A stretch of DNA of 43,139 nucleotides, from IMG/VR virus record IMGVR_UViG_3300044970_000973, positions 1 through 43,139 of that record; one strand, 5' to 3'. The translations under genes were made by a program, and so were the position numbers. Every line of letters starts with the position of its first letter. Positions within the stretch are counted from its first letter, which is position 1. The notes beneath the pieces were generated by a model that worked only from the letters and a program-made list of their open reading frames with translations, did no database searches and was not told where the DNA came from. This DNA comes from a virus. Below are positions 31,655 to 43,139 of this stretch, piece by piece.

Positions 31655-34093
31655 TCAGGTGATGAAGTAGTCGGCAAGCCGGACGTTGTTCACGTCGAGC
31701 CGGCCCAGCTTGGGAAGTGGTGGCGCCTTGCAGCGCACCTGGTCGGGGAGTTGTTGCAATAGTTCACCCGTGATCTGGGTGAGCCAGTCGTGCTGGTACA
31801 TGGCAGCGAACGCATTGCGCACGGAGTCACGCAGCTGGGCCATCTCGGCGGGGGTCGTGCTGAAGCAGTCATGGATTCCTCCAAGGTTGCGGACGCCAGA
31901 GGCAAAGGCGTCAACGGTGGACAACGCCATGTGACTGGCGTCGAGTGAGTGGATGACGTTGGGGCTGAGCCCATTGCCCATCCGCTTGGGGTTCAGCCCA
32001 TCGGGGATGTGGTTCGACAGCAGGTCCATCGCCACTGACGACAGGTGGTGCAGCTTGATCCGCACACCCCGGTAATCCATGTACCGCTGCCGCACCGGCA
32101 GGCCAGAGGGCGACGTCCACTGCAGCTCGACGTCGTACTCGCCGGCCAGCTTGCCCACCTGCTTGAACCAGTGCATGGCTTTCTTGGCGGGGCCAATCAC
32201 CTCGGCCGTCTCACGGCAGACGATGGTGGTCATGTAGTGCATGGCGGCCATGGCCCCCTTCTTGAAGCACCACCCATCCAGGCCGTAGAGCTCGACCGTC
32301 CGGTCGAATGCCCAGCCCTGGCAGAAGCCGAAGATCGCTTGCCTGGTGGCGGAGTAGGGGGTGGTCATCACCACCGGCTTGAGCAGCGAGCGATCGGGCT
32401 GCAGCTGCAGCCAGCTGCTGGCGTGCGGGTCGCCGGTTTCTGCGTCGCTGCGCACCTGGGCCAGCACCCGGTCGAGCACCACGCTGTAGATGTCCCGCGG
32501 TTCCTCTGATGGCAGCAGGTTCACCAGCTGCGCCATGTCCTCGGAGCGGAGCAGCGCGGCGTAGTGCTGGATCCCACTGCAGGTGCAGTCGAGCACCACC
32601 GGCAGGCGGCACACGTACCCGTACCCGTGATGGCTGAACTGCTGGTATGTGCGGCAGAAGGCAAGGAACTGCCACGGGTCGTCGGCCTTGGTCCAGAACT
32701 CAGCTCTGCCCCATGGGTCACGGCCGGCCGCCTCGATCTCCAGCTGGTGCTCATGCACCCAGTCAAGCCGGGCCCGCCAGCTTGTCTTGCTGTAGCCGTA
32801 GGTGTTGGCGCCATGGATCCGCAGCCAGTCGGCCTCCTCCTCGGTGGTGATCGGCGTGCCGTTGGCGAACAGCAGCAGAGCCCTGGCCATGTCGCTGCCT
32901 TGTGGGTTCAGGAAGCTGGGCCGGTAGTAGTACCTGCCCCTGAAGTCCAGCTGCATGGGGAACCAGATGGCTGGCTCCTTGGCCATGCGACGTGCCACCC
33001 ACAGCAGCTTGGCCGTGGCGATCCGCTTGTTCCTGGTCTTGTCGTTCTTGTCGTGGATCTGCCTGGCGTTGAACTTCCACTGCGTCACGTCGGGGTGGTC
33101 GTCGGCCAGGTGCTTGGGGTAGGGCGGCACTGACCATCCCTCCCTGGGCATCAGCGCCCCCACCTCCAGCCCCTTGTCCCATGCAAACTGCAGCTGCTCC
33201 AGCATCCAGCCGTTCACCTGGTAGGCGACGGACTGCTGCAGGTTGGCGGCCTTGATGAACGGCTCGTCCCCGGTAATCGCCTCCTGCACCTGCTCGGGGT
33301 TCTCCTTCATCAGCGATGAGTTGATCTGGATGGGATTGAGGTAGCCCCCTTCCATCACCCCCTGCCATGGCCGCGGCGGCACCACCATCGGCAGCACGAA
33401 TGGGCACAGCGCCTTGTCCTGCTCCTCCATCTCGCGTATCCACTGGATGCAGGCTTCCGTTGCCCGCACCCTGCGCACCTTGCGGCAGGCGCTCTGCTCC
33501 ATGGTCACGCTGATCAGCCCGGTGTGGTTGGCGATCAGCTGAATGAGGAACACGCCCACGCTCAGCCGCTCCTGCGGTGTCCAGATGCTGGTGTTCTGCA
33601 TCCGCAGGATGTCGGCCACCTTCACCTTCAGCCGCAGCCGCTTGGCCTTGTGGTTCTTCCGTTCCCAGACGGTGGCCCGGGCCAGCATGGTCTCCATCCA
33701 CAGCTTGTCGGCCACCTCGTAAGCGAAGGCGTGCAGCTTGCTGACCTGGGTGATGGAGTCGACCACCACCCGCAGGGCAGTGGCTGCAATCTTGTGTGGC
33801 GCCAGCTGCAACAGCGGCTGGAGATGCACGTACTTGGGGCCGGCGATGCCCTTGCGGATCTGGCTGCGGTGATGACGCAGGACATCGATCACCTGGTCGA
33901 TGCCGGCCACCGTCAGGCTTTCGCCGTAGTGGGACAACGACTCCATCCGCAGCAGTCGGCGGCGGTTGATGAGGAGGCTGATACGATCCGCCCCCAGCTG
34001 CATCATCTCCTGCTCAAGTGCGAGCTGGTCGTCTTCCGTCCGGCAACAGGGTGGAGAAGGGGACGCGTGGAGCACGCCCGATAGGTCGGACAT
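31655..34093 (-). CDS. T7-type single-subunit RNA polymerase
   Basis: 812 aa, shorter than T7 gp1 (883). The palm motif VLDCTCSGIQHYAALL places catalytic D502; in T7 the motif is DGSCSGIQH. The O-helix region LLKPVVMTTPYSATRQAIF supplies the Lys and Tyr (about 570-580), and GIHDCFSTTP gives the second aspartate D742. These show an active enzyme that would transcribe middle and late genes from phage promoters. The C-terminus ends ADYFIT rather than T7's DFAFA. It begins with ATG at 34093, close to the attP core; the leader carries CCACCACAGAAATG. T7-like phages normally express it from a host promoter. Confidence 0.96.
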   Translation of the reverse strand: MSDLSGVLHASPSPPCCRTEDDQLALEQEMMQLGADRISLLINRRRLLRMESLSHYGESLTVAGIDQVIDVLRHHRSQIRKGIAGPKYVHLQPLLQLAPHKIAATALRVVVDSITQVSKLHAFAYEVADKLWMETMLARATVWERKNHKAKRLRLKVKVADILRMQNTSIWTPQERLSVGVFLIQLIANHTGLISVTMEQSACRKVRRVRATEACIQWIREMEEQDKALCPFVLPMVVPPRPWQGVMEGGYLNPIQINSSLMKENPEQVQEAITGDEPFIKAANLQQSVAYQVNGWMLEQLQFAWDKGLEVGALMPREGWSVPPYPKHLADDHPDVTQWKFNARQIHDKNDKTRNKRIATAKLLWVARRMAKEPAIWFPMQLDFRGRYYYRPSFLNPQGSDMARALLLFANGTPITTEEEADWLRIHGANTYGYSKTSWRARLDWVHEHQLEIEAAGRDPWGRAEFWTKADDPWQFLAFCRTYQQFSHHGYGYVCRLPVVLDCTCSGIQHYAALLRSEDMAQLVNLLPSEEPRDIYSVVLDRVLAQVRSDAETGDPHASSWLQLQPDRSLLKPVVMTTPYSATRQAIFGFCQGWAFDRTVELYGLDGWCFKKGAMAAMHYMTTIVCRETAEVIGPAKKAMHWFKQVGKLAGEYDVELQWTSPSGLPVRQRYMDYRGVRIKLHHLSSVAMDLLSNHIPDGLNPKRMGNGLSPNVIHSLDASHMALSTVDAFASGVRNLGGIHDCFSTTPAEMAQLRDSVRNAFAAMYQHDWLTQITGELLQQLPDQVRCKAPPLPKLGRLDVNNVRLADYFIT

Positions 34094-34104
34094 TTCTGTG
34101 GTGG

Positions 34105-34116
34105 ATCAATGGCTTA
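34105..34116. repeat. 12-bp direct repeat left of attP
   Basis: ATCAATGGCTTA, repeated exactly at 34196-34207. The two copies bracket the tRNA-like core with 79 bases between them. Loose similarity continues for about a dozen bases into the integrase end (…GCGCC). The arrangement suits integrase arm-type sites or a duplication of the integrase terminus. Confidence 0.7.
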
Positions 34117-34148
34117 CGTGGTTGCGCCTGATCTGATGGGGCCCGGGT

Positions 34149-34193
34149 CTCATAATCCGTTGGTGCGGGGTTCGACTCCCCGGGGGCCCACCA
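34149..34193 (+). other. attP core: 3' half of a tRNA-Met(CAT)
   Basis: The 45 bases from CTCATAATCCGT to the terminal CCA equal tRNA positions 32-76: anticodon loop CTCATAA, 3' anticodon stem TCCGT, variable loop TGGTG, T-arm CGGGG/TTCGACT/CCCCG, acceptor strand GGGGCCC and ACCA. The bases before it (CCCGGGT) do not pair with TCCGT and no D-arm is present, so this is not a working tRNA gene. It lies 11 bases from the integrase stop. That is the usual form of a phage attachment site that restores the host tRNA 3' end on integration; P-SSP7 has a similar arrangement. Confidence 0.85.
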
Positions 34194-34195
34194 GA

Positions 34196-34207
34196 ATCAA
34201 TGGCTTA
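34196..34207. repeat. 12-bp direct repeat right of attP
   Basis: Second copy of ATCAATGGCTTA, three bases after the tRNA CCA; its last three bases are the integrase stop codon read from the other strand. See the copy at 34105-34116. Confidence 0.7.
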
Positions 34208-35290
34208 GCGGTGCGCCATCACTGGCTCGGCAACAAATGTTGCGGACTTCGCAACAGGTTGCAGAGCGGGGACGACGGTCCCTTGCAGGACACGAATCGC
34301 ATCCTTCAGTTCGCGGCTGGAGAGGTGGGCGTACTTCTCCGTCACCTGAATGGAGCTGTGCCCAAGGATCTTCTGCACCACGTACAGGCTGACGCCTGAC
34401 TGCACCAGCCTGGTTGCGCAGGTGTGGCGCAGGGCATGGGGTACGAACTGGTCGTCGTCATCCAGACCCATGGCTGAGCGGGCCCGGTCCCAGTAGTAGC
34501 GCAGGGTTTCACGGGTCAGGTTGTAGAACACCAGCCCCCGGCTGGCAGCGCACCGGCCGGCGATGATCTCCCGCACCCGCTGCGTCATGGGCACCGACCT
34601 GGGCAGGTCCCCTTTGTTCTGCCAGATGCTGATGATGTTCTCGCGCAGGTCGATGTCCTTGACCTCCAGGTGCAGCAGCTCACCGACCCTCATGCCGGTG
34701 TCGACCAGGACGGTGATCGCCTCCAGCACAGCCGGCTGGTTCCACTGGATCATGAGCTGAGCCAGCAGCTGCTCCTCGTCAGGCGACAGGTACCTGATGC
34801 GGTGCGTGGGTTCAGGTAGGCGGATCATGCGTGGCCGCTTGGCCACACCACCCCGCTCCTCAGCGTCGGTGAACATGGCCGACAGGCTGGCCAGCTTCCG
34901 GTTCATGGTGCCGGCGCTGTTCCCCTTCTTGCGCAGGTGCTTGATGTACTCGTCGATGGCGTCCTTGTCGATCGAGTCCAGGTCCCGGGCCTTGCCGAAG
35001 AATGCGACTGCATCACGGGCGTTCCGTGCTGCCTTGGTCTCGTTCTTGGTGCCCTGCCACCGCACCTCCAGTGTCTTCTCGTACGCCTGCTGGATGGTCC
35101 AGCTGTTGGGTGTGGCCGCAGCCTCCCGCTTGATCACGGCACCACGCAGCTCAGCTTCCAGCTGCAGCCGGCCAATCACTGCCTCCTCGTAGCTCTTGTA
35201 GGTAGCGGTGCGCCGCTCCCCTTGGACGGTGACGTCGACCAGGTAGCTGCCGCCACGCTGGCGTATCCCGTCTCTGGTTTTCCCTTTCAT
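34205..35290 (-). CDS. int: Tyrosine-type site-specific integrase
   Basis: 361 aa from ATG 35290 (MKGKTRDGIRQRGGSY), preceded by GAGGAAACC; upstream codons lack a better start. Residues 1-50 form the arm-binding type domain, about 65-150 the SAM-like core-binding domain, and the rest the catalytic domain with R201 (TGMRVGEL), H285/R288 (HALRH), His in LGHSS (about 312) and nucleophile Y320 (EKYAHLS). All catalytic residues are present, so it should be active. Its 3' end abuts the attP core, which implies integration in a tRNA-Met gene. Expressed with the early minus-strand genes. Confidence 0.95.
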   Translation of the reverse strand: MKGKTRDGIRQRGGSYLVDVTVQGERRTATYKSYEEAVIGRLQLEAELRGAVIKREAAATPNSWTIQQAYEKTLEVRWQGTKNETKAARNARDAVAFFGKARDLDSIDKDAIDEYIKHLRKKGNSAGTMNRKLASLSAMFTDAEERGGVAKRPRMIRLPEPTHRIRYLSPDEEQLLAQLMIQWNQPAVLEAITVLVDTGMRVGELLHLEVKDIDLRENIISIWQNKGDLPRSVPMTQRVREIIAGRCAASRGLVFYNLTRETLRYYWDRARSAMGLDDDDQFVPHALRHTCATRLVQSGVSLYVVQKILGHSSIQVTEKYAHLSSRELKDAIRVLQGTVVPALQPVAKSATFVAEPVMAHR

Positions 35291-35328
35291 GGTTTCCTCG
35301 GTGGTGGTGGGTGTGCAATAGAGAATGA

Positions 35329-35343
35329 TTTGTCTAGTACAAA
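35329..35343. promoter_or_regulatory. Palindrome upstream of the integrase
   Basis: TTTGT-CTAGT-ACAAA, a 5-bp inverted repeat about 40 bases before the integrase start in an unusually A+T-rich spot of this genome. It could be an operator or part of a host-type promoter. No repressor gene is recognised, so this is a candidate only. Confidence 0.3.
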
Positions 35344-35380
35344 TGCTTAGCAATAGGCATAAGGTGACACAGGGTTTCCC

Positions 35381-35704
35381 CTATATCCCAGCCTGCATCT
35401 TCTTGCAGGCTGCACGCCAGACCAGGTTGGCAAAGGCTTTGGTCGGTGCGTTCATTTCAATCTCGAACGACTCAGCCCATTGGTCAAACGCCAGTTGCTG
35501 CCGCTGTTCTGGTGTTTCTTCTGGTACATCAGGCGCCTCAGGTGCGTATGTCCAGTGGGTGCTACCTGCGTAGGCAGGTATAGACCAATAGGCTGAGTGC
35601 CATCCGAACTTAGGGTGAAACCACAGCACACGACCGTCGTCGCCTGCGTCTTTGGCGGTTGGCCTGCGTGCCACTACATCGAACACGTTTTCAGGTAGAG
35701 CCAT
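35381..35704 (-). CDS. Early hypothetical protein
   Basis: 107 aa: MALPENVFDVVARRPTAKDAGDD, HPKFGWHSAYWSIPAYAG, and a C-terminal helix ending AACKKMQAGI. No motif recognised; the FGWHSAYWSIP segment is aromatic-rich. The last codons form one arm of an 8-bp hairpin (35390-35397 with 35404-35411) that lacks a T-run. It is the last gene before the integrase in the early block. Confidence 0.65.
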   Translation of the reverse strand: MALPENVFDVVARRPTAKDAGDDGRVLWFHPKFGWHSAYWSIPAYAGSTHWTYAPEAPDVPEETPEQRQQLAFDQWAESFEIEMNAPTKAFANLVWRAACKKMQAGI

Positions 35705-35721
35705 GATGAATAGATGATGGG

Positions 35722-35961
35722 TCAGAGTTTGCCAAGCACATTGATATGGCTGGCATCAGGGTGTCTGTTCTTGGTGAACTTGATGGCCTCTTGTTTAGTC
35801 ATCGCCTTCACCGTCGTCTTCATTGATGGTCCGTTCTTGAACTGCACGTCCACCTGCCACAGCCTGGCGGCCGGGTTGCTTGTCCGGCTCAGCCCATCAC
35901 CCACCACAGGGTTATTGGTCTCGTGCCATGGCAGCACGTAGCTGTCCTTAGGCCGCGGCAT
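35722..35961 (-). CDS. Early hypothetical protein
   Basis: 79 aa: MPRPKDSYVLPWHETNN ... LWQVDVQFKNGPSMKTTVKAMTKQEAIKFTKNRHPDA (in part). The C-terminal half has two strands and a helix with basic residues, like small nucleic-acid-binding or ubiquitin-size phage proteins. No family recognised. It overlaps the preceding gene by 14 bases. Confidence 0.65.
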   Translation of the reverse strand: MPRPKDSYVLPWHETNNPVVGDGLSRTSNPAARLWQVDVQFKNGPSMKTTVKAMTKQEAIKFTKNRHPDASHINVLGKL

Positions 35962-36178
35962 CGGTGTCCCTCAGCAGGCGATCGGCCACCTCGTTGATGG
36001 CCAGGTAGCAGATGCGGGCCTGGCCCTGGTCGGGCGCCCACGTCCTGATCTCCTTGGCCAGCAGCTGGATCACGCCACGCATCCGGCTGCGACTGCGCAG
36101 TGTCGACGTGGTGTGCCTGTCATCCCAGTATTCGGCAAGGCAACGGGTGAGCAGGTCATCGGATGGGGCAGGCTTCAT
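35948..36178 (-). CDS. Early hypothetical helical protein
   Basis: 76 aa from ATG 36178 (MKPAPSDDLLTRCLAEYW). The frame is open to 36283, but those residues lie over the next gene and are low-complexity Thr/Ser. The body is helical with a basic middle (TLRSRSRMRGVIQLLAKEI) and ends RLLRDTDAAA. It overlaps both neighbours, as usual in this operon. Function unknown. Confidence 0.6.
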   Translation of the reverse strand: MKPAPSDDLLTRCLAEYWDDRHTTSTLRSRSRMRGVIQLLAKEIRTWAPDQGQARICYLAINEVADRLLRDTDAAA

Positions 36179-36443
36179 CTGTTCGCAGCCTGTCGGCAAC
36201 GAGCTTGGCGTAGCCGGCGATGTCATCCCAGCTGTCGATGTAGTCGGGGTCTCCATTGAGGATGTGTCCAATCTTGTGGGCAATCATGTGCAGGGCTTCT
36301 TCCTGGTCGACGGCCAGGCGCTTGTCCCTGTCGAGAAGGTGAGATGTCATCACCTTCTTCAGCTGCATCGTGACCTTGGCGTGGCCATGGAAGTCACCGT
36401 ATCGCTGGCCTCGCTCGGCCAGCATTGCTTTGATGTCAGTCAT
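36156..36443 (-). CDS. DUF6378/MazG-like phage protein
   Basis: 95 aa. MTDIKAMLAERGQRYGDFHGHAKV ... EEALHMIAHKIGHILNGDPDYIDSWDDIAGYAKLVADRL (in part) is a widely conserved phage pattern: AERG-RYGDF, HKI-RILNGDP and W-DIAGYA. It resembles MazG-type nucleotide pyrophosphohydrolase-like all-helical folds, but enzymatic activity is unproven. ATGA overlap with the preceding gene. Confidence 0.75.
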   Translation of the reverse strand: MTDIKAMLAERGQRYGDFHGHAKVTMQLKKVMTSHLLDRDKRLAVDQEEALHMIAHKIGHILNGDPDYIDSWDDIAGYAKLVADRLRTDEACPIR

Positions 36444-36733
36444 GCGGCGTCAGGTGGAGTGGTGGGTTTGATGAAGCGTGCTGCCTGCTGCCGGTCCCGT
36501 CGTCCCCGTTCCGTGAGGGTGTACCCCCCACCGGACGGGCGGATCAGGCCGGCGTAGTCCAGCACCTTGATCTGTTCGTTGAGTGCGTCTTGATACCAAG
36601 CCTTGTCACGGGTGAGGAATGAAGTCCGACACTCCGATGCCAATGTCCTCCGGTCCAGTGGCCTGGGGAAGCTGTTGCTCAGGGTGTTCAGCAGCTCATT
36701 GCGCAGAGCTGCCATTGCGTGGGTGTCGCTCAT
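36440..36733 (-). CDS. Small winged-helix-like protein
   Basis: 97 aa. FPRPLDRRTLASEC ... ALNEQIKVLDYAGLIRPSGGGYTLTERGRRDRQ reads like a winged helix: helix, recognition helix ending in LDYAGLI, then the wing GGGYTLTERG. It may be a DNA-binding regulator of early genes, but the N-terminal part lacks a clear HTH and no family is recognised. ATGA overlaps join it to both neighbours. Confidence 0.65.
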   Translation of the reverse strand: MSDTHAMAALRNELLNTLSNSFPRPLDRRTLASECRTSFLTRDKAWYQDALNEQIKVLDYAGLIRPSGGGYTLTERGRRDRQQAARFIKPTTPPDAA

Positions 36734-36969
36734 TGGTGATTAGAGCAAGTGTCTACGGGGGGAGCAATGACCGCAACGGGAGTTTCGACCTGCTTGATCA
36801 CAGCCATCGCTTCCGTAATCTCCCTATGGATTACGGTGCTGGCAACGCAGCCCTTGCGCAGCAAGGCATCGACAGCGGCAACACGTCGCGCCAGTGCGGA
36901 ATAGGCCCGGGCGTAGTCAGGGCCAATGATTTCCATTTGCTCAACTCGTGCGGGGGTCAGTTCAGTCAT
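36730..36969 (-). CDS. Early hypothetical protein
   Basis: 79 aa: MTELTPARVEQMEIIGPDYARAYSALARRVAAVDALLRK (in part), then VIHREITEAMAVIKQVETPVAVI. Mostly helical; no motif recognised. The leader reads CAACTAATCCCACCATG, one of several CCCACC leaders in this operon. Confidence 0.6.
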   Translation of the reverse strand: MTELTPARVEQMEIIGPDYARAYSALARRVAAVDALLRKGCVASTVIHREITEAMAVIKQVETPVAVIAPPVDTCSNHQ

Positions 36970-36989
36970 GGTGGGATTAGTTGAAATCT

Positions 36990-37475
36990 CTAGAGGGTGT
37001 TTGCCGCGACAGCAGCACCGAGCATGAGGTGGTCTTCACTGGAGCAGAGGCCCTCCTCAAGTGCTGGATTCCAGTCGTGCTCGGGGCAGCGACGACAGCG
37101 AACAAAATGGGGTGAGGGGCGTGGTAGCCAGCCAGCATCAGCCGCTGCCAGTGCAGTGGTGTAACGGGCGCGGTCGGCATTGATGGCACGGGTGTAGGAG
37201 GAGCCCAGATGTTCGTGGCCCGGCAGCCAGCAGCGGTAAGCGCTGGGCAGCTTTATCCACTTGCTCACTGCGTCGCCTCTTGCTGCGGCACCGGCAGCGC
37301 CCAGTGGGGGAGCGAAACGGTCTGGTGGGACAGCCGCTCGCTGGGCTTGCGCAGGATCCACTCCATAAAGCCTGGCCAACCGAATGGCTCCTATGTAATG
37401 CTCATCGCCATCATTTTTACTTTTCACATAACCAGGACACAGGACGTAACGGACTGTCAATCTGTGGTCTGCCAT
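36990..37475 (-). CDS. Early conserved phage protein, two-part
   Basis: 161 aa. The first 40 residues (RLTVRYVLCPGYVKSKNDGDEHYIGAIRLARLYGVDP, in part) match a short protein widespread in phages, in which CPGYV and H-YI/V-...L-RLYGV are conserved. Residues about 65-161 look like a different small domain with a WIKLPSAYRCWLPGH segment and a CRRCPEHDW cysteine pair. It may be a fusion of two small phage proteins. Function unknown. Confidence 0.7.
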   Translation of the reverse strand: MADHRLTVRYVLCPGYVKSKNDGDEHYIGAIRLARLYGVDPAQAQRAAVPPDRFAPPLGAAGAAARGDAVSKWIKLPSAYRCWLPGHEHLGSSYTRAINADRARYTTALAAADAGWLPRPSPHFVRCRRCPEHDWNPALEEGLCSSEDHLMLGAAVAANTL

Positions 37476-37487
37476 TAGTGTGTTCCT

Positions 37488-37724
37488 CTAGGGTGTGCCG
37501 GGAGCAGGCAAAACCTCGCCTAAGCGAATGTCACCATCTCCATTGTGATAGATGCAGCAATCCTGATCCCAGCCAAGAACGTTTGAGCTGACTTCGTGCG
37601 CTGTGACGCTTGGGAAGTAATCAGTCCGAACAATCTCATCGTGCATGTCAATAGCCTCGGAATCGTCTTCAGCCCATACATAGGCGTCATAGACAATTTG
37701 AACCGCAAAAAGTCTCTTTGCCAT
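37488..37724 (-). CDS. Early hypothetical protein
   Basis: 78 aa: MAKRLFAVQIVYDAYVWAEDDSEAIDMHDEIVRTD ... LGWDQDCCIYHNGDGDIRLGEVL (in part). A beta-alpha-beta start with the VWAEDDSEAI pattern is common in small phage proteins of unknown function. Its DNA is less GC-rich than the neighbours, a possible sign of recent gain. Confidence 0.65.
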   Translation of the reverse strand: MAKRLFAVQIVYDAYVWAEDDSEAIDMHDEIVRTDYFPSVTAHEVSSNVLGWDQDCCIYHNGDGDIRLGEVLPAPGTP

Positions 37725-37740
37725 AATCCTTTAGCCTTCT

Positions 37741-37902
37741 TCACTTGGAGTCCAGCAGGCAGAGGATCTGCGCTGGTTTGTTGTCGTAGAGCTTTTGGCA
37801 AGCGTGCCACTTCTGAGGAAGCCACCACCAGCCAGCCGCAATCATCAGAACCAGCGTTAAAGCAATGGCGCCAATCGTTGCGTATTCGTCGATACTTTTC
37901 AT
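37741..37902 (-). CDS. Small single-span membrane protein
   Basis: 53 aa from ATG 37902, with a strong ribosome site (GGAGG, nine bases upstream) that decides the start; the frame extends 14 codons further. IGAIALTLVLMIAAGWWWLP (about 10-29) is a transmembrane helix, followed by a Lys/Cys-containing tail ending LCLLDSK. A short membrane protein among early genes may alter the host envelope; function unknown. Confidence 0.65.
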   Translation of the reverse strand: MKSIDEYATIGAIALTLVLMIAAGWWWLPQKWHACQKLYDNKPAQILCLLDSK

Positions 37903-37906
37903 GGGC

Positions 37907-38071
37907 TTAGACCTCCTGCCTTGTGGATTCCGGGGCCAACACATTGATCACATGCTTGGCCCATGCGATCGCAATGACGGTGGCTTGTGAGTTGGGTGTC
38001 GATCCGTAGCTGTCTTTCCACCAGCTGCGGTACAGCTCAGCGAGCTGCAGGTCTGTCGCTTGTGTGTTCAT
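37907..38071 (-). CDS. Small hypothetical protein
   Basis: 54 aa: MNTQATDLQLAELYRSWWKDSYG ... ATVIAIAWAKHVINVLAPES. The LAELYRSW ... AIAWA-HV pattern recurs, from memory, in small early cyanophage proteins. The last codons contain the GGAGG ribosome site of the next gene. The leader has CCACCCACCGCACACC before ATG. Confidence 0.65.
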   Translation of the reverse strand: MNTQATDLQLAELYRSWWKDSYGSTPNSQATVIAIAWAKHVINVLAPESTRQEV

Positions 38072-38180
38072 GGTGTGCGGTGGGTGGTGCAGATGTGGGG
38101 CTCATCTGATGAGCCAGTCCAACAAGGGCCCATGTCATCAGCAGGATGGTGCTGAAGTCAGCGATCCGATCACGCATCAT
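38037..38180 (-). CDS. Possible small membrane protein
   Basis: 47 aa from ATG 38180 (or the adjacent ATG 38177): MMRDRIADFSTILLMTWALVGLAHQM, then a Pro/Thr/His tail. Residues 9-25 could span the membrane. It overlaps the preceding gene by 11 and the following gene by 35 bases; the His/Thr tail is largely the leader of the next gene in another frame. Support is only the hydrophobic stretch and the tiling, so it may not be real. Confidence 0.4.
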   Translation of the reverse strand: MMRDRIADFSTILLMTWALVGLAHQMSPTSAPPTAHHEHTSDRPAAR

Positions 38181-38358
38181 GCAAGGGCTCCATGTCCTCA
38201 GGGCGGGCCGACACATTGGGCCCCCCGATCAGCAGTCGTTCAGCCTCTGGCGTCCACTGCCTGGCCAGCTGCAGCACGTCAGCTCCCAGGTCGTGGTGTC
38301 CGTCGGCATTGAGGCGGGCTGCCGCTTGAAGCAGCAGCTGGTGGGCTGGCGCTCTCAT
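38170..38358 (-). CDS. Small hypothetical helical protein
   Basis: 62 aa from ATG 38358 (MRAPAHQLLLQAAARLNADG). A helical repeat-like body LLLQAAARLNADGHHDLGADVLQLARQW is followed by TPEAERLLIGGPNVSARP. The upstream extension of the frame is low-complexity and not used. No function known. Confidence 0.55.
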   Translation of the reverse strand: MRAPAHQLLLQAAARLNADGHHDLGADVLQLARQWTPEAERLLIGGPNVSARPEDMEPLHDA

Positions 38359-38479
38359 GGCACAGCCCGGGCCAACACATTGGAAGAATCCATGGGTGGT
38401 GGTGGGCGGGCCTGAGCAGCATGGCCGCGGCAGCCTGCTGCATTGGTGCTGTTGTTGTGGTTCTTTACAAAGGGAGGGA

Positions 38480-38497
38480 GGCCCCATTGCTGGGGCC
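38480..38497 (-). terminator. Weak hairpin in the early block
   Basis: GGCCCC/GGGGCC stem of six pairs with a six-base loop, followed on the minus strand by TCCCTCCCTTT rather than a clean T-run. It lies after the 38514-38708 gene in a 155-bp gap (38359-38513) where I see no gene. Possible attenuator. Confidence 0.35.
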
Positions 38498-38513
38498 CTG
38501 GTAATTGATCAGA

Positions 38514-38708
38514 TCAGCGGGCAAGGGTGCTGTGTGGGCACCGCTCCATGTATTCCCGCACCTGGTCCTCGGTGATGGTGCGAGACGCGACGGGTAACCC
38601 TTTGGCGTAAGCCATGGCACACCAGCCGGTGTGGCTGATGTTGCTGCGCTGGAACACGACGTCGGACCCGTGAAACATCACCCGGTCAATGGCTTTTAGG
38701 TTGATCAC
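38514..38708 (-). CDS. Small hypothetical protein, GTG start
   Basis: 64 aa beginning with GTG at 38708, which overlaps the TGA of the preceding gene (GTGA). MINLKAIDRVMFHGSDVVF ... GLPVASRTITEDQVREYMERCP (in part). An internal ATG ten codons in is the alternative. The C-terminal helix ends with a Cys. No family recognised. Confidence 0.55.
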   Translation of the reverse strand: MINLKAIDRVMFHGSDVVFQRSNISHTGWCAMAYAKGLPVASRTITEDQVREYMERCPHSTLAR

Positions 38709-38842
38709 TGTTTTGTGTGGTGTGTGGTGGGTTGGGTGCCGGAGTGTGTCACCGGCTGGGACGCCAGCTCATAGAGAGCGGCGCCCCATAAAAAACCTGC
38801 CCCCAGCACGGTGGCCAGGGTCAGGAGCAAGCGGCTCAGCAT
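38705..38842 (-). CDS. Small single-span membrane protein
   Basis: 45 aa: MLSRLLLTLATVLGAGFLWGAALYELAS has a basic residue at position 4 and a hydrophobic helix (about 5-25); the tail is Thr/His-rich. It could equally be a short signal-anchor. It starts three bases after the preceding stop and is coupled by GTGA to the next gene. Function unknown. Confidence 0.55.
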   Translation of the reverse strand: MLSRLLLTLATVLGAGFLWGAALYELASQPVTHSGTQPTTHHTKQ

Positions 38843-38845
38843 GGT

Positions 38846-39331
38846 TCAGCCTTCCCCGTAATAGAACAGGGAAGCAAACCAGCGCAGTGCGTCGGCTTCG
38901 TATTCATGGCGTGTCCAGAAGCGGGTCCATGGGGTGCCCCAATCCTGGATTTCAAGCCAGCACCTGGCCGGCTCGTGCCATTGGTTCAGCTCGCCCATGA
39001 TGCGCAACGCTGGGCCTCCGGTGCTCAGCAGGATGCGGAACTCCTCGGGCTCCATTGATGCGCTATCGCTTGGCGCCTTCCACCCCTCCCTGATCTCAAC
39101 GCTCAACGGGGCCTCCCGCATCGCGTCCTCGATCCATTCGGCCACGACGTCGTAGTTGGTGCCGTCGTACCCCTGGGACTTCAGGCAAGCTTTCGCCTCC
39201 CGTGAGAGGACTCGCCCTTCGCCTTCGCAGGCGCAGAACTGGTGCGCTTCATAGGCCGCGGCGATCTGATCAAGCCAGCCGCCTGCGTTCTGCTCAGCGT
39301 GGCTGAGCCGCTGCTCTTCTTTAGTTGTCAT
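38846..39331 (-). CDS. Conserved early phage protein
   Basis: 161 aa from MTTKEEQRLSHAEQNAGGW (ATG 39331); the frame is open 41 codons upstream without coding character. Segments GYDGTNYDVVAEWIEDAMREAPLSVEIR and FRILLSTGGPALRIMGEL (first cited in part) look like a known family of phage/cyanobacterial proteins of unknown function. Mixed alpha/beta, with acidic surface. The leader contains ACCCACCACA. Confidence 0.75.
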   Translation of the reverse strand: MTTKEEQRLSHAEQNAGGWLDQIAAAYEAHQFCACEGEGRVLSREAKACLKSQGYDGTNYDVVAEWIEDAMREAPLSVEIREGWKAPSDSASMEPEEFRILLSTGGPALRIMGELNQWHEPARCWLEIQDWGTPWTRFWTRHEYEADALRWFASLFYYGEG

Positions 39332-39398
39332 GGTGCTGCAAATGTGGTGGGTGCTGGTGAGACCAGCAGGGAACCCCCGCAGGGGCTCCGGGCTGGTG

Positions 39399-39581
39399 TC
39401 AGACGGCCGCTTGCCAGATGGTCGGCGCCCATATGGGATCGACCCGCTGCGCATTCGTCCGCTGCTTCCATTGCCTGAATGCCTCCAGCTCCGCCAGATG
39501 CGGGCAGGTGGCAGGGCACGACGTCTCCCCGCAATAGAGAGACCGACAGGCCATAGGAAAGGCCCGCTGCTCCCGTGCCAT
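39399..39581 (-). CDS. Small cysteine-containing early protein
   Basis: 60 aa from MAREQRAFPMACRSLYCGE. Four cysteines (CRSLYCGETSCPATC) in the first half suggest a small metal-binding unit, followed by HLAELEAFRQWKQRT and a conserved-looking DPIWAPTIW end. Short proteins of this pattern occur in cyanophages as I recall; function unknown. Two bases separate it from the preceding gene. Confidence 0.7.
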   Translation of the reverse strand: MAREQRAFPMACRSLYCGETSCPATCPHLAELEAFRQWKQRTNAQRVDPIWAPTIWQAAV

Positions 39582-39583
39582 GG

Positions 39584-39736
39584 TCAGAGCAGCTGCAGGA
39601 CAGCCGCCAGCCCCAGAAGGGCCAACAGCACGGTCTGCCGCTGCTCCAGCTCGCGGATACGGTCGGCCTGGTAGTCGGCCAGCTCGCACGCCGCGGTCAG
39701 CACCTCCGCCTTGGAGGTGCGCTCAGTGATCTGCAT
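39584..39736 (-). CDS. First early gene: small membrane protein
   Basis: 50 aa from ATG 39736: MQITERTSKAEVLTAACELADY, a charged helix, then a C-terminal hydrophobic helix TVLLALLGLAAVLQLL. A tail-anchored membrane protein by appearance. It is the first gene of the minus-strand unit and its leader has ACCCACCACAGAAA, shared with the RNA polymerase leader. Confidence 0.7.
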   Translation of the reverse strand: MQITERTSKAEVLTAACELADYQADRIRELEQRQTVLLALLGLAAVLQLL

Positions 39737-39797
39737 TTGTCCAGTTTCTGTGGTGGGTCGGCAGCGGATCTCCCCCCTGCCTGATCCCATCCTAGCA

Positions 39798-39809
39798 ACT
39801 ACCGGTAGT
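39798..39809. promoter_or_regulatory. 12-bp perfect palindrome near early genes
   Basis: ACTACCGGTAGT. On the minus strand it is followed directly by TGCTAGGAT, which resembles an extended -10 element, so it could be an operator over a host-type promoter for the early genes (start at 39736). Confidence 0.35.
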
Positions 39810-39919
39810 GGCGTGCCATAGGTCGACCGTGCCCGCCGGTGCCCCACCGTTTCCATCCCCAGGTGAACTGAAGTAGCGGGTGAGTAGCTGGGGCGGTTCA
39901 CACCGTAGAGACGCGGGAA

Positions 39920-39934
39920 TGAGAACCATTCTCA
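39920..39934. promoter_or_regulatory. Fur-box-like inverted repeat
   Basis: TGAGAAC-C-ATTCTCA, a 7-1-7 inverted repeat with six of seven pairs. It matches the general Fur 7-1-7 box TGATAATNATTATCA at all but three positions, and the variant TGAGAATNATTCTCA at all but one. It lies about 185 bases upstream of the first early gene. Binding by host Fur is inference. Confidence 0.35.
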
Positions 39935-39984
39935 AAGCAGGCGACCCAGGGTGCCCGCCCTGCGGGCCCAGCCCTGGCCTGGCT

Positions 39985-40007
39985 GCAGGGGATCTGCAGT
40001 CCCCTGC
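39985..40007. other. 8-bp hairpin in control region
   Basis: GCAGGGGA - TCTGCAG - TCCCCTGC, eight paired bases with a seven-base loop and no T-run on either side. Not a standard terminator. Confidence 0.45.
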
Positions 40008-40032
40008 TCTCCCTGCCCCTGCAAGGGCTTAC

Positions 40033-40058
40033 GGGCTGGTGTTGCGGGCTGGTGTTGC
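40033..40058 (+). repeat. Two 13-bp tandem repeats
   Basis: GGGCTGGTGTTGC twice in a row, immediately followed by AGGCACC. Short direct repeats (iterons) of this kind can be protein-binding sites. Confidence 0.6.
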
Positions 40059-40134
40059 AGGCACCCCCTCCCCCCTGCCTCTCAGGCCCGGCAGCAGGCC
40101 CCCCAGGAGGGGGGAACGACGCGCCGCAGTAGGC

Positions 40135-40162
40135 GTAATAGCCCCTCACATTTTCGGACCAA
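40135..40162 (-). promoter_or_regulatory. Candidate host-type promoter for early genes
   Basis: Minus strand TTGGTC - 16 bases - TATTAC, downstream of a TTTTTT tract. It points at the early operon about 400 bases away. Match to sigma-70 consensus is partial. Confidence 0.3.
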
Positions 40163-40207
40163 AAAAGTGAACCGCGGTTGTACAGAGTTGAGTTGTAGGG
40201 GATGTGT

Positions 40208-40235
40208 CCCCCGAGGTGCGATAGCACCTTGGGGG
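40208..40235. other. Long perfect stem-loop
   Basis: CCCCCGAGGTGC - GATA - GCACCTTGGGGG: twelve pairs with a single G·T and a four-base loop. It directly abuts the G-quadruplex tract. No T-run follows on the plus strand, so it is more likely a structural or binding element than a simple terminator. Confidence 0.6.
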
Positions 40236-40260
40236 TAAGGGGGAGAGGGGGAGAGGGGGG
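40231..40260 (+). other. G-quadruplex-forming tract
   Basis: Runs of 5, 5, 5 and 6 G (40231-35, 40239-43, 40247-51, 40255-60) separated by TAA, AGA and AGA: a strong four-run G-quadruplex motif with three-base loops. The minus strand is a pure pyrimidine tract apart from one A. Confidence 0.65.
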
Positions 40261-40290
40261 AGGAGGCTGCTAGGGGGGGCTGTGGAGACC

Positions 40291-40319
40291 TTGGACGCCC
40301 TAATTCACCTTTATTCAAT
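40291..40319 (+). promoter_or_regulatory. Candidate host-type promoter for the plus unit
   Basis: TTGGAC - 17 bases - TTCAAT in the most A+T-rich part of the control region, pointing at the winged-helix/TerS unit. Partial consensus match only. Confidence 0.3.
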
Positions 40320-40451
40320 AATGGGTGCGACTGGGTTTTCGGGACGAGAACACTGGGATCTGGGCCTGTGTCGTCCACGAAGTCATTAAGAAAGTCGCAT
40401 AGCAAAATGAACCAGGGGGCCTAGTGTTCTTTAAGGTGGTGCGGACCCGCA

Positions 40452-40784
40452 GTGAACCAGGCCATGTTGACGTTGAACCAGGGAGGGGTGGCCGCTTTGG
40501 CGGCTGCGATTGGCAGGAGGGAGCTGCAGCCGAGGGACGGAGCGGTGTACCTGGCGCTGCTGTCGTTCATGAACCCGATCACCTGTCGGGTGGACGTCCG
40601 CGCCAGGGTGGTTGCTGAGCGGGTGGGGATGATGGAGAAGCACGTCATCAGCTCCATCAGCCGGCTGTGCAAGGCTCACCACGTCGCCAGGCAGCGAGGC
40701 CCTGGGGGCGATCCGGTGCTGGTCCTGAATCCCTGGGTCGGCCCCCAAGGCCATCACTCCCTCGTTGCGGAAGACGTCGACTGA
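40452..40784 (+). CDS. Winged-helix DNA-binding protein
   Basis: 110 aa from GTG 40452; an in-frame ATG at 40464 (MLTLNQGGVAALAAAIGRR) may be the real start. ALLSFMNPITCRVDVRARVVAERVGMMEKHVISSISRLCKAHHV (in part) has the order helix, helix-turn-helix, recognition helix, and GGDPVLVLNPW forms the wing. It resembles winged-helix replication/MarR-like proteins found in cyanopodoviruses. It is the first plus-strand gene, just beside the control region, so it may bind there as regulator or replication initiator. That role is inference. Confidence 0.72.
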   Translation: MNQAMLTLNQGGVAALAAAIGRRELQPRDGAVYLALLSFMNPITCRVDVRARVVAERVGMMEKHVISSISRLCKAHHVARQRGPGGDPVLVLNPWVGPQGHHSLVAEDVD

Positions 40785-40824
40785 CGGGCTATGGTGTGTG
40801 CGGTGCCTGTGGTGGGTGCTGCAA

Positions 40825-40858
40825 GGGGGAGAAGGACAGACCACGGGCTTTCTCCCCC
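40825..40858 (+). other. Inverted repeat before TerS
   Basis: GGGGGAGAA and TTCTCCCCC, nine pairs with a 16-base loop, in the 94-bp gap between the winged-helix gene and TerS. After it come CGCCCCTTTTG and the TerS ribosome site. It may be a partial terminator or an mRNA structure that controls TerS. Confidence 0.5.
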
Positions 40859-40878
40859 GCCCCTTTTGGGAGGGATCT

Positions 40879-41121
40879 ATGGCCAAAGCGAAAGACACCA
40901 ACGAGCTGCTGTCGAACCTGCACGCCGGCCTGGCCCAACATCTGCACGACCGGCTGAGTGATGGGGACATCACAGCTGGTGAGCTGAACATCCTCCGCCA
41001 GTTCCTGAAGGACAACCAGATCAGCGCACAGCCTGTTGAAGGGACGCCCTTTGGGGAGCTGGTGTCGGCCTTGCCTGACCTCGATAAGGTGGTGCAGATG
41101 AAGCCACGCAGGGCCGCCTAG
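40879..41121 (+). CDS. terS: Terminase small subunit (TerS, T7 gp18-like)
   Basis: 80 aa from ATG 40879, with GGAGGG five bases upstream; the frame is open to 40765 without a better start. NELLSNLHAGLAQHLHDRLSDGDITAGELNILRQFLKDNQISAQP (in part) follows the T7 gp18 pattern: helix, then G-x-[IV]-T-x-x-E-L, then FLKDN. It recognises phage DNA and hands it to TerL. In the closed circle TerL starts 1.9 kb downstream, after an adhesin cassette, instead of directly or nearly so. Confidence 0.88.
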   Translation: MAKAKDTNELLSNLHAGLAQHLHDRLSDGDITAGELNILRQFLKDNQISAQPVEGTPFGELVSALPDLDKVVQMKPRRAA

Positions 41122-41123
41122 CT

Positions 41124-41336
41124 ATGCCCACTTTCGTCACCGGCCCTAATGATGGCCCCGTGCAAGTCACGGATGGGTTGCAGGTCCCAGCGCACGACTA
41201 CATCGCCTTCAGCTATACCGGCAGCAACCTGACGGGTGTCGTCTATCGCCGCGGCGGAGTCAGTGGAACTATTGTCGCCACACTCACCCTGGCCTACGAC
41301 GGCAGCAACAACCTGATCTCCGTTGCCAAGAGTTGA
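41124..41336 (+). CDS. Small structural-type protein of the fibre cassette
   Basis: 70 aa: MPTFVTGPNDGPVQVTDGLQ, HDYIAFSYTGSNLTGVVYRRGG, TLTLAYDGSNNLISVAKS. An all-beta protein; near-identical short proteins are found beside tail fibre genes of cyanophages as I recall. Probably a minor virion protein. It starts two bases after the TerS stop. Confidence 0.72.
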   Translation: MPTFVTGPNDGPVQVTDGLQVPAHDYIAFSYTGSNLTGVVYRRGGVSGTIVATLTLAYDGSNNLISVAKS

Positions 41337-41339
41337 GCA

Positions 41340-42506
41340 ATGCCGCTTCAGTTCAACCCATTCACCGGCAACCTTGACTTCGCGGGCGGAGATGCCGTTG
41401 CTGTCGCCCTGAACCTTCGGGGCACTGTCGCCAACCAGGCTGCGCTGCCCAGCTCCGGCAATGTCATCGGGCACGTCTGGCAGGCGATCGACACCCGGGT
41501 CTTCTACGCCTGGGATGGATCGGCCTGGGACAACCTCGGCACCCTTGCCGGCCCTGCCGGCCCTGCCGGCCCCGGCACCGATCTGAGCTACACCGCGGCG
41601 ACTCGCCTGCTGGAGTCCAGCTCCGGCGGCGATGTCACCCTGCCGCTTTTCGCCTCGGGCGCTGCCGGCTTGACGCCCGCATCTGGCGGCGGCACCGGCA
41701 ACTTCCTGCGTGCTGACGGCAACTGGGCTGCGCCGCCAGCCGGCGGCGGTAGCACGCCCACCGACCTGAGCTACAACCCGGCGACTCGCCTGCTGGAGTC
41801 TTCAACGGGCAATGATGTCACCCTGCCGCTCGTCGCCTCAGGGGCCGCTGGCCTGGCCCCCGCATCCGGGGGTGGCACCAGCAACTTCCTGCGGGCTGAC
41901 GGCACCTGGGCCGCGCCAGCTGGGGGTGGTGGGGGTGGCTTGCCTGGCCAGGAATACGCAGCTGGCTTTTGGCTGTCTCCGCTGAACGGCACGGTCGGTA
42001 GCGCCGCGGCGATGGTGGCAAACACCATCTACCTGTATCCGTTCACGCTGGAGCGTTCTGTGACCGTTGGCGAGCTTGGCGCCCGCGTAAACACCGCAGC
42101 AGCAGGAACTTCAGTCCAGCTGGCCATTTACGGGACGACGAATGGAGAGCCCATCGGCGCACCCTTGGGCAACACTGTCAGCTTGTCGGCAGGCACCCAG
42201 GGCCTTGTCTCCGACAACGTGGCCGACTTCAACCTCACGGGGCATGTCACCTACTGGATGGCATCGAATAGCGATGGCACCCCGGCCCTGCAGCATCTGT
42301 CCGGCGCCGCTGTCAACGCCGCTGCTGCGATTCTCGGTGCCCCCACCTTGGCGCAAGTGGCTTCGGCTGCTTCGGCATCTGGCGGATGGCGCTCTGTCGC
42401 CCAGACATTTGGCACATGGCCCACGCTCGCCGCAGGTGCTACCACAGTGCAAACCGGCGCCGTCCGTGGCGGCATTGTTTACCTGCAGCTTGCTGCGCTC
42501 CTGTAA
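41340..42506 (+). CDS. Collagen-like tail fibre/adhesin
   Basis: 388 aa. It begins MPLQFNPFTGNLDFAGG, a common cyanophage fibre start, followed by a GHVWQAIDTRVFYAWDGSAW (47-65) binding-type segment, a short collagen-like GPAGPAGPG (about 73-81) and two copies of a 61-residue repeat starting DLSY..ATRLLESS and ending NFLRADG.WAAP (from nt 41580 and 41763). After a glycine run the C-terminal about 190 residues form a beta-sandwich (YPFTLERSVTVGELGARVNT) that probably binds the receptor. It is unrelated to the 436-aa adhesin that occupies the equivalent place at the other end of the window. Its stop overlaps the next ATG. Confidence 0.8.
   Translation: MPLQFNPFTGNLDFAGGDAVAVALNLRGTVANQAALPSSGNVIGHVWQAIDTRVFYAWDGSAWDNLGTLAGPAGPAGPGTDLSYTAATRLLESSSGGDVTLPLFASGAAGLTPASGGGTGNFLRADGNWAAPPAGGGSTPTDLSYNPATRLLESSTGNDVTLPLVASGAAGLAPASGGGTSNFLRADGTWAAPAGGGGGGLPGQEYAAGFWLSPLNGTVGSAAAMVANTIYLYPFTLERSVTVGELGARVNTAAAGTSVQLAIYGTTNGEPIGAPLGNTVSLSAGTQGLVSDNVADFNLTGHVTYWMASNSDGTPALQHLSGAAVNAAAAILGAPTLAQVASAASASGGWRSVAQTFGTWPTLAAGATTVQTGAVRGGIVYLQLAALL
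41580..41925 (+). repeat. Two tandem 61-codon repeats in the fibre gene
   Basis: Units start at 41580 and 41763 (offset 183 bases). Each encodes DLSY-x2-ATRLLESS ... DVTLPL-x-ASGAAGL-x-PASGGGT-x-NFLRADG-x-WAAP. Just before them is GGCCCTGCC repeated three times (collagen-like GPA). Both can expand or contract by recombination. Confidence 0.75.
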
Positions 42507-43027
42507 TGGGCATCGCCTACTCCCCGGAAGGCATTGCGATCAGTGACGACCGCAACCCCAGTCGCCCCCCGCTGTTGCTGCCGGCCACAGCCACCCAGGC
42601 GGAGATCGACTCGGCGGCACTGGAGTATCTGCAGCCTGAGCCAGAGCCCGACTACGACGGCTTCGGCTTGTGGCTGCTGACCACCCCCGAAATCCTGGCG
42701 GCCTATGACGCCGCATTCGCGGGCAACAAGCTCACCGCGGGGACGCTCCCATCGGCTGTGCTGGCTGCCGCCGGAGGCGAGCCGAAGCACCTGCGCACCA
42801 CGCTGCTGCTGCTGCACGGCCAGGGCCTGCTGGGGCAGGAGACCATCGGGTCGATGCTGACCAAGGCCCAAGAGTGCAGCCTGCCGCCTGAGTTCTTGCA
42901 GGCGATGCAGTGCGACGCTCCTGCGCCTCGACTGGTCCGCGCCCGCGACGAGGAGGGTCAGTACGAGGGTGACGATCCCTCCACGCCGGACATCAACGAG
43001 GCGTGGGTGGAAGTTGAGCAGTCCTGA
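42506..43027 (+). CDS. Protein before TerL (long version)
   Basis: 173 aa from an ATG overlapping the fibre stop (TAATG). MGIAYSPEGIAISDDRNPS, LLLPATATQAEIDSAALEYLQP (in part), then a helical middle (LLTTPEILAAYDAAFAGNKL, LLLLHGQGLLGQETIG) and a C-terminus GDDPSTPDINEAWVEVEQS. The end matches the 65-aa protein at 1655-1852 apart from Ile/Val; the rest does not. It may be a fibre partner or chaperone; function unknown. Its stop overlaps a second copy of the TerL start that is cut off by the window end. Confidence 0.72.
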   Translation: MGIAYSPEGIAISDDRNPSRPPLLLPATATQAEIDSAALEYLQPEPEPDYDGFGLWLLTTPEILAAYDAAFAGNKLTAGTLPSAVLAAAGGEPKHLRTTLLLLHGQGLLGQETIGSMLTKAQECSLPPEFLQAMQCDAPAPRLVRARDEEGQYEGDDPSTPDINEAWVEVEQS

Positions 43028-43139
43028 TGGCCAGGCAGCTGGCAACCTGGCAGCCACTGCCTGAGCCCTACAGCACCGACTTCCGCTACTTCCTGGTCAT
43101 CGTCTGGCGCCACCTGGGCCTGCCGGACCCCACGCCTAT
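43013..43139 (+). repeat. 127-bp direct repeat, copy 2 (partial TerL)
   Basis: Identical to 1838-1964. It contains the end of the 173-aa gene and the first 37 codons of TerL, truncated by the window edge. Best read as the same locus reached twice round a circular assembly path, not as a second TerL gene. Confidence 0.9.

Follow-up and report, generated by a model that had tools for sequence, protein, structure and literature searches.

A probable attachment core matching the 3′ half of tRNA-Met(CAT) between the integrase and RNA polymerase genes of a T7-like phage

In the gap between its genes for a tyrosine integrase and a single-subunit RNA polymerase (RNAP), a T7-like phage carries 45 bases that are identical to the 3′ half of tRNA-Met(CAT). 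We consider it probable that these bases form the core of the phage attachment site (attP), that the phage integrates into a host tRNA-Met(CAT) gene and rebuilds it, that integration uncouples the RNAP gene, and that the host is of Burkholderiales type. The DNA analyzed, here called the window, comprises the 43,139 bases of a virus record from an environmental sample. T7-like phages are textbook lytic phages, and repressor-less lysogeny in some of them is an open question. In the window, the sequence alone indicates both the crossover point and a conserved distance of 55 nt between it and the RNAP start codon. The proposed switch is simple and testable: integration would disconnect the RNAP gene and excision would reconnect it.

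Results

The 45-mer (CTCATAATCCGTTGGTGCGGGGTTCGACTCCCCGGGGGCCCACCA; positions 34149–34193, plus strand) corresponds to tRNA-Met(CAT) positions 32–76 and consists of the anticodon loop, the 3′ strand of the anticodon stem, the variable loop, the T arm, the 3′ acceptor strand, A73, and CCA. Scanning 84,980 species genomes with its last 31 bases returned 22 stretches; the full 45-mer is present without mismatch in 18, with one mismatch in L010, L011, and L019, and with two in L013. In 17 of these stretches, ARAGORN predicts a complete tRNA-Met(cat) gene at the site, whose 3′ end is formed by the 45-mer or by its near match. As ARAGORN calls no tRNA when run on the whole window, the tRNA sequence of the phage is without a 5′ half. 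In the matching tRNA genes, the anticodon loop is preceded by GCGGA (GTGGA in L019), which forms the 5′ side of the anticodon stem; the window has CGGGT there, so the identity runs from the first base of the loop (position 32) to A76. An exact agreement with tRNA genes over 45 bases cannot be chance. The genome matches and the ARAGORN calls bear out the first-pass annotation, which had described a tRNA-Met(CAT) 3′ half (positions 32–76) with no 5′ half.

Other tRNA-Met 3′ halves that lack a 5′ half occur in beta- and gammaproteobacterial genomes and in one viral contig (L004, L008, L010, L011, L013, L026, L182, L184, and L185), and are probable traces of other elements that integrated in the same tRNA gene. 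A wide tRNA-Met pattern run against viral contigs found, among the matches listed, mostly complete tRNA genes. In L035–L118, again among the matches listed, CCA follows every site of the GGTGC..GTTCGACTC type (53/53) and 24 of 32 sites of other types.

The core adjoins an integrase gene (34205–35290, minus strand), whose 361-amino-acid product matches Pfam Phage_integrase at 110.7 bits (cut-off 27.1). The R..K..HxxR..H..Y residues, which we take to be the catalytic residues, are invariant across seven aligned integrases. With this score and these residues, the earlier description of a complete tyrosine integrase adjoining the core holds. The likely start codon is the ATG at 35290 rather than the TTG at 35353. 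On the other side of the core, the RNAP gene (31655–34093, minus strand) begins with an ATG 55 nt from the anticodon loop.

Besides integrase and RNAP, the genes of the window, which lie mostly on the minus strand, encode a single-strand binding protein, an endonuclease, a primase-helicase, and an exonuclease, together with portal, scaffold, capsid, and tail proteins. A single-subunit RNAP and T7-like structural and replication genes in order place the phage in the Autographiviridae (T7-like). Its RNAP and capsid protein group with those of P-SCSP1, and no DNA polymerase gene was recognized among the scanned window proteins or by synteny with P-SCSP1u, which by these markers places the phage in the MPP-C lineage. 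The MPP-C cyanophages P-SCSP1 and P-SCSP2 belong, according to the available part of the published account, to a lineage without DNA polymerase (PMC9860041). The window resembles P-SCSP1 in gene order (compared in P-SCSP1u) and is 51% identical to it in RNAP and 73–77% in the capsid protein, but P-SCSP1u has no annotated integrase and a G+C content of 39%, against 64% in the window. P-SCSP2 does have an integrase; no tRNA half was recognized near it, and its RNAP falls outside the clade described next.

To gather clade contigs, viral contigs were scanned twice for the integrase and once for RNAP. In all 12 rows with both an integrase and attP, which represent 8 sequence variants, a tRNA 3′ half lies in the int–RNAP gap (L028 and L033 were left out as copies of the sequence of the window and of L030 there). 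The half is that of tRNA-Met in the window, L029, L030, L032, and L070, and that of tRNA-Leu(TAA) in L031, L167, L172, L194, L195, L196, and L197. In each of the 12 rows it begins at the anticodon loop and retains CCA. The stretch from the crossover point to the RNAP start codon (34094–34148, minus strand, in the window) is likewise of fixed length, exactly 55 nt in 12/12 rows (8 measured by script, and L194–L197 read from the sequence). Among clade integrases 62–87% identical to that of the window, the target varies between tRNA-Leu and tRNA-Met. That identity starts at the loop in every variant fits strand exchange in the anticodon loop. The half and the 55-nt spacing in 12/12 rows support the proposal, made in the first-pass annotation, of an attachment core for the neighboring tyrosine integrase of a T7-like phage, aimed at tRNA-Met. 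We regard integration of the phage as likely, and the phage may be temperate.

Could the half tRNA instead act as a hairpin for regulation or processing of the early int–RNAP transcript? The T arm is indeed a G+C-rich hairpin within the int–RNAP leader. We think this explanation highly improbable, since such a hairpin would need neither an exact tRNA match nor CCA, a start at the anticodon loop, or switching between Met and Leu, and five relatives manage without the half.

In this class of tyrosine integrase, the strand exchanges take place a few bases from each other within a short overlap. A recognized location for such crossovers is the anticodon loop of tRNA genes, flanked by its symmetrical stem. 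In the attachment core of the window, the 7-nt anticodon loop CTCATAA (34149–34155, plus strand) is the proposed overlap region: identity with the host genes begins here, the Leu halves begin here, and the repeat that bounds an integrated distant relative (G772, described below) covers the anticodon loop. The preceding CGGGT (34144–34148, plus strand), a phage-specific arm that replaces GCGGA of the host, may serve as a core-type site.

Two arm-like direct repeats flank the core and are candidate arm sites for the integrase. On the integrase side, TAAGCCATTGATTC (34194–34207, minus strand) abuts CCA and overlaps the end of int, whose TAA stop codon doubles as the first three bases of the repeat. 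On the RNAP side, TAAGCCATTGATCC (34103–34116, minus strand) lies 32 nt past the anticodon loop. The window holds no other copy of the repeat at ≤2 mismatches. Across the clade, seven of the eight variants have the repeat AAGCCATTGATT 1–4 nt from CCA on the integrase side, the distance being 12 nt in L030. Six of the eight have it at offset 33 on the RNAP side, where L194 and L197 lack a good match to AAGCCATTGATT. The putative arm repeat is significant on both sides in the window, L032, L070, L031, and L167 and is weak in L030 (shuffle p = 0.07 left and 0.09 right) and L194 (0.115 left and 0.88 right). In L197 the shuffle p value is 0.22 on the right.

The arm motif also occurs after host tRNA-Met genes, in 6 of 89 flanks at ≤1 mismatch (mean in shuffles, 0.04). 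Since several of these matches lie in terminator-like hairpins, we do not take them to prove earlier integration events or the identity of the host. A AATCAAGG-type sequence found 3–4 nt past the CCA of beta-type tRNA-Met (L020, L006, L022, and L026) resembles the phage repeat and is often a terminator-like hairpin.

Five RNAP relatives (L164, L165, L169, L170, and L171) have neither int nor the tRNA half, which argues that the two travel as a module. L166 and L168 have int and have lost the tRNA half, which counts against the proposed attachment site. Read from these sequences, the int–attP module is one that has been gained and lost among the clade. The integrases of L166 and L168 also lack the C-terminal tail, as if a single deletion had taken the att core. 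In L070, the 3′ end of int contains an inserted HNH_3/NUMOD4 endonuclease gene (L070:4676–5296), and the last residues of the endonuclease are those of the clade integrase C-terminal tail; because of this insertion, int and attP are 498 nt apart, against 6–39 nt.

Integrated copies of clade phages were sought through their RNAP. None was present in the 20 genomes bearing the site, in 399 Burkholderiales genomes, or in 398 Pseudomonadota genomes; 2 of the 399 and 5 of the 398 held a distant RNAP only, all matches being at 29–41% identity. These absences weigh against the proposal but refer to the genome samples searched and are no disproof of integration. The attachment-junction pattern gave 0 matches in viral contigs, and the 60 kb covered in G666 gave no integrase match. 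The G060 contig, in which int and RNAP lie near each other and no tRNA was found, is uninformative on int–RNAP geometry.

Alternatively, the site might be a relic: an imprecise excision in the past would have captured the half, the module would be in decay, and the phage would by now be lytic in practice. The sister phages that lost the whole module or the tRNA half would suit such a history, as would the endonuclease gene in the L070 integrase and the absence of clade prophages from the genomes and viral contigs searched. We nevertheless consider a relic unlikely: the integrase is intact, the core equals living tRNA genes over 45 bases, and the fixed 55-nt spacing and the arm motif occur in 8 variants with different tRNA alleles.

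A distant relative is found in integrated form. In the Pseudomonadota genome G772, a T7-like prophage (G772:C7:119992–162674) splits a tRNA-Leu(TAG) gene. A 13-bp repeat, CTGGATTTAGGTT, which covers the anticodon loop of that tRNA, bounds the prophage. The RNAP gene of the prophage lies at one end (alignment from 120365) and its integrase gene at the other (161525–162529), 41 kb apart, with a whole phage-borne tRNA-Leu(tag) just upstream of int. This prophage directly supports, in a distant relative, crossover in the anticodon loop and the placement of RNAP and int at opposite prophage ends, both of which are predicted for the window phage. It differs from the window in its tRNA-Leu(TAG) target, its 13-bp core, and its whole replacement tRNA. 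As its integrase is only 33.5% identical to that of the window (RNAP, 33–35%), the layout is that of a distant cousin and not of the window phage itself.

What might regulate the module? A conserved winged-helix DNA-binding protein of 97 amino acids (36440–36733, minus strand) is a candidate regulator whose model is similar to CggR, MotA, and MarR domains, with none of the matches reaching E < 0.001. Since its gene also occurs in relatives without int, it is not tied to lysogeny. A perfect inverted repeat, ATTTGTACTAGACAAAT (35328–35344, minus strand), in the A+T-rich stretch upstream of int is a possible operator. Of 10 rows, 7 (the window, L029, L030, L070, L167, L168, and L197) have perfect inverted repeats in the stretch before int; the repeats vary in sequence among rows and are also possible operators. 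A scan of the coding strand from 33900 to 43139 for sigma-70-like promoters found no site, so the early promoters are not placed, and 18-mers common to intergenic gaps revealed no phage promoter. A promoter specific to the phage may also lie near the RNAP gene, as it does in LUZ100; this possibility and the lack of placed early promoters weigh against the uncoupling proposed below.

Discussion

In the free phage, the early genes, int, attP, and RNAP follow in succession on one strand. We propose that the integrase exchanges strands within CTCATAA between circularized or concatemeric phage DNA and the tRNA-Met(CAT) gene of the host. The phage 3′ half (positions 32–76) would join the host 5′ half to give an intact tRNA-Met gene, with its own promoter, at the integrase end, and the host 3′ half would be displaced to the other prophage end, beside the RNAP gene. 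With attP situated between them, int and RNAP would be carried to the two ends of the prophage, and 55 bp of phage DNA would separate the RNAP start codon from the host DNA before it. Cut off from the early promoters upstream of int, RNAP would no longer be read from them and the late program would stay off until excision, with no dedicated repressor. Since RNAP would be severed in this way, integration alone may be sufficient to silence the late program.

The module is of a known kind, as other T7-like phages also have int and attP beside RNAP. What is new is the tRNA-Met target, the carriage of a 3′ half in place of the 5′ half of cyanophages, and the likely host; a literature search whose coverage left most subscription papers outside returned no report of a tRNA-Met attP in this group. 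P-SSP7 and S-TIP37 are T7-like cyanophages with int and attP, in which the authors found no repressor, as stated in the available portion of the report (PMC8776855), and the same portion describes integration of T7-like cyanophages as rare and transient (PMC8776855). Like the window, both have a tyrosine integrase and a host tRNA identity that ends at the anticodon loop (PMC8776855, available portion), and in P-SSP7 attP lies between int and RNAP. They carry a tRNA-Leu 5′ half (in sense in P-SSP7), whereas the window carries a tRNA-Met 3′ half antisense to int, and the window integrase is 24.5% identical to that of P-SSP7. Given that these T7-like cyanophages integrate without stable lysogens, as far as that portion goes (PMC8776855), the caution about classical lysogeny voiced in the first-pass annotation is reasonable.

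Parallels in layout also come from the temperate T7-like phages of proteobacteria LUZ100, HTVC200P, YIMV22061, and ProddE, which have the integrase gene just upstream of RNAP, as in the window, and a tRNA-Leu sequence in or near the module. The integrases of this group are 31–39% identical to that of the window. ProddE, like the window, has an antisense tRNA 3′ half in the int–RNAP gap but, unlike the window, a CI-like repressor. The other three differ from the window in carrying a whole tRNA-Leu, and LUZ100 and HTVC200P also differ in having a MarR gene directly upstream of int. For LUZ100, the available part of the report proposes MarR control together with host read-through from a promoter upstream of int (PMC10134795). 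Uncoupling of RNAP by integration would add to this proposal and is not stated in that part of the report (PMC10134795).

Which bacterium is the host? The tRNA sequences point to a bacterium with a beta-proteobacterial (Burkholderiales-type) tRNA-Met gene, which we regard as the likely host. All 22 genome matches to the 31-mer carry beta- or gammaproteobacterial titles, in a comparison that does not extend to cyanobacterial genomes and uses a query that demands an encoded CCA, so that CCA-less cyanobacterial tRNA genes are beyond its reach. The second Met allele, that of L030 and L032, was found in 12 of 300 Burkholderiales genomes, at 15 places in all, in a search that also took in G001, a genome that holds the allele of the window. 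The Leu halves of the relatives, searched as a degenerate pattern at ≤3 mismatches, matched in 14 of 300 Burkholderiales genomes, with 0 exact matches. In plasmid and phage collections, a tRNA-Met search matched only Cupriavidus, Burkholderia, and a Bordetella phage.

The first-pass annotation had pointed to a picocyanobacterial host. Under this alternative, the attachment mechanism would be the same, the host would be a freshwater picocyanobacterium (Synechococcus/Cyanobium type), and its tRNA-Met 3′ half would be coincidentally identical. The kinship of the phage speaks for it: capsid protein and RNAP are sister to those of Prochlorococcus phage P-SCSP1, at the identities given above, the RNAP tree places the clade with P-SCSP1u at 91/99, and the closest named relatives infect Prochlorococcus. 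In addition, a 60-kb viral contig, G002 (L159, L030, L160, and L161), joins a clade phage (~1–38.6 kb) to a phage (~39–60 kb) like S-SRP02, which infects Synechococcus.

The tRNA evidence runs the other way. The matching tRNAs are beta-proteobacterial, with the titles of all 22 matches to the CCA-requiring query counting against a picocyanobacterium. Picocyanobacterial tRNA genes are mostly without an encoded CCA, whereas CCA is retained in 12/12 attP rows. The Leu(TAA) halves of the sister phages misfit cyanobacterial tRNA-Leu, as only 3 of the 7 positions in their acceptor strand, TCCGGGC or CCCGGGC, pair with the tRNA-Leu 5′ half of picocyanobacterial type that P-SSP7 bears. Known T7-like cyanophages, as far as the available sources describe them, carry a tRNA-Leu 5′ half, and the C-terminal part of the tail fiber is nearest to those of Klebsiella and Acinetobacter phages. 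We therefore think a picocyanobacterial host, whether taken alone or with the coincidental identity just described, rather doubtful and retain the Burkholderiales-type host.

This conflict between the host clue in the tRNA half and the cyanophage kinship bears on host jumps between phyla, and also on the practice of assigning hosts to uncultured viruses by gene similarity. One speculative scenario, which we think rather doubtful, is that a freshwater branch of MPP-C jumped to Burkholderiales-type hosts, its int–attP module switching between Leu and Met loops, with a repressor-less lysogeny in which integration itself parts RNAP from its early promoters and excision is induction.

Shine-Dalgarno use was also tried as an indicator of the host and did not separate the hypotheses. 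With gene lists hand-picked from annotations and ORF lists, starts with a Shine-Dalgarno sequence number 8/30 in the window, 5/27 in P-SCSP1u, 9/29 in P-SSP7, 13/31 in S-SRP02, 13/30 in BB8, 9/27 in YIMV22061, and 22/32 in LUZ100.

Finally, we note that the joint in G002 falls in a tail gene common to both phages, at 90% identity over 1209 bp. Although the contig is probably an assembly chimera, it shows the sharing of a tail gene between two T7-like lineages.
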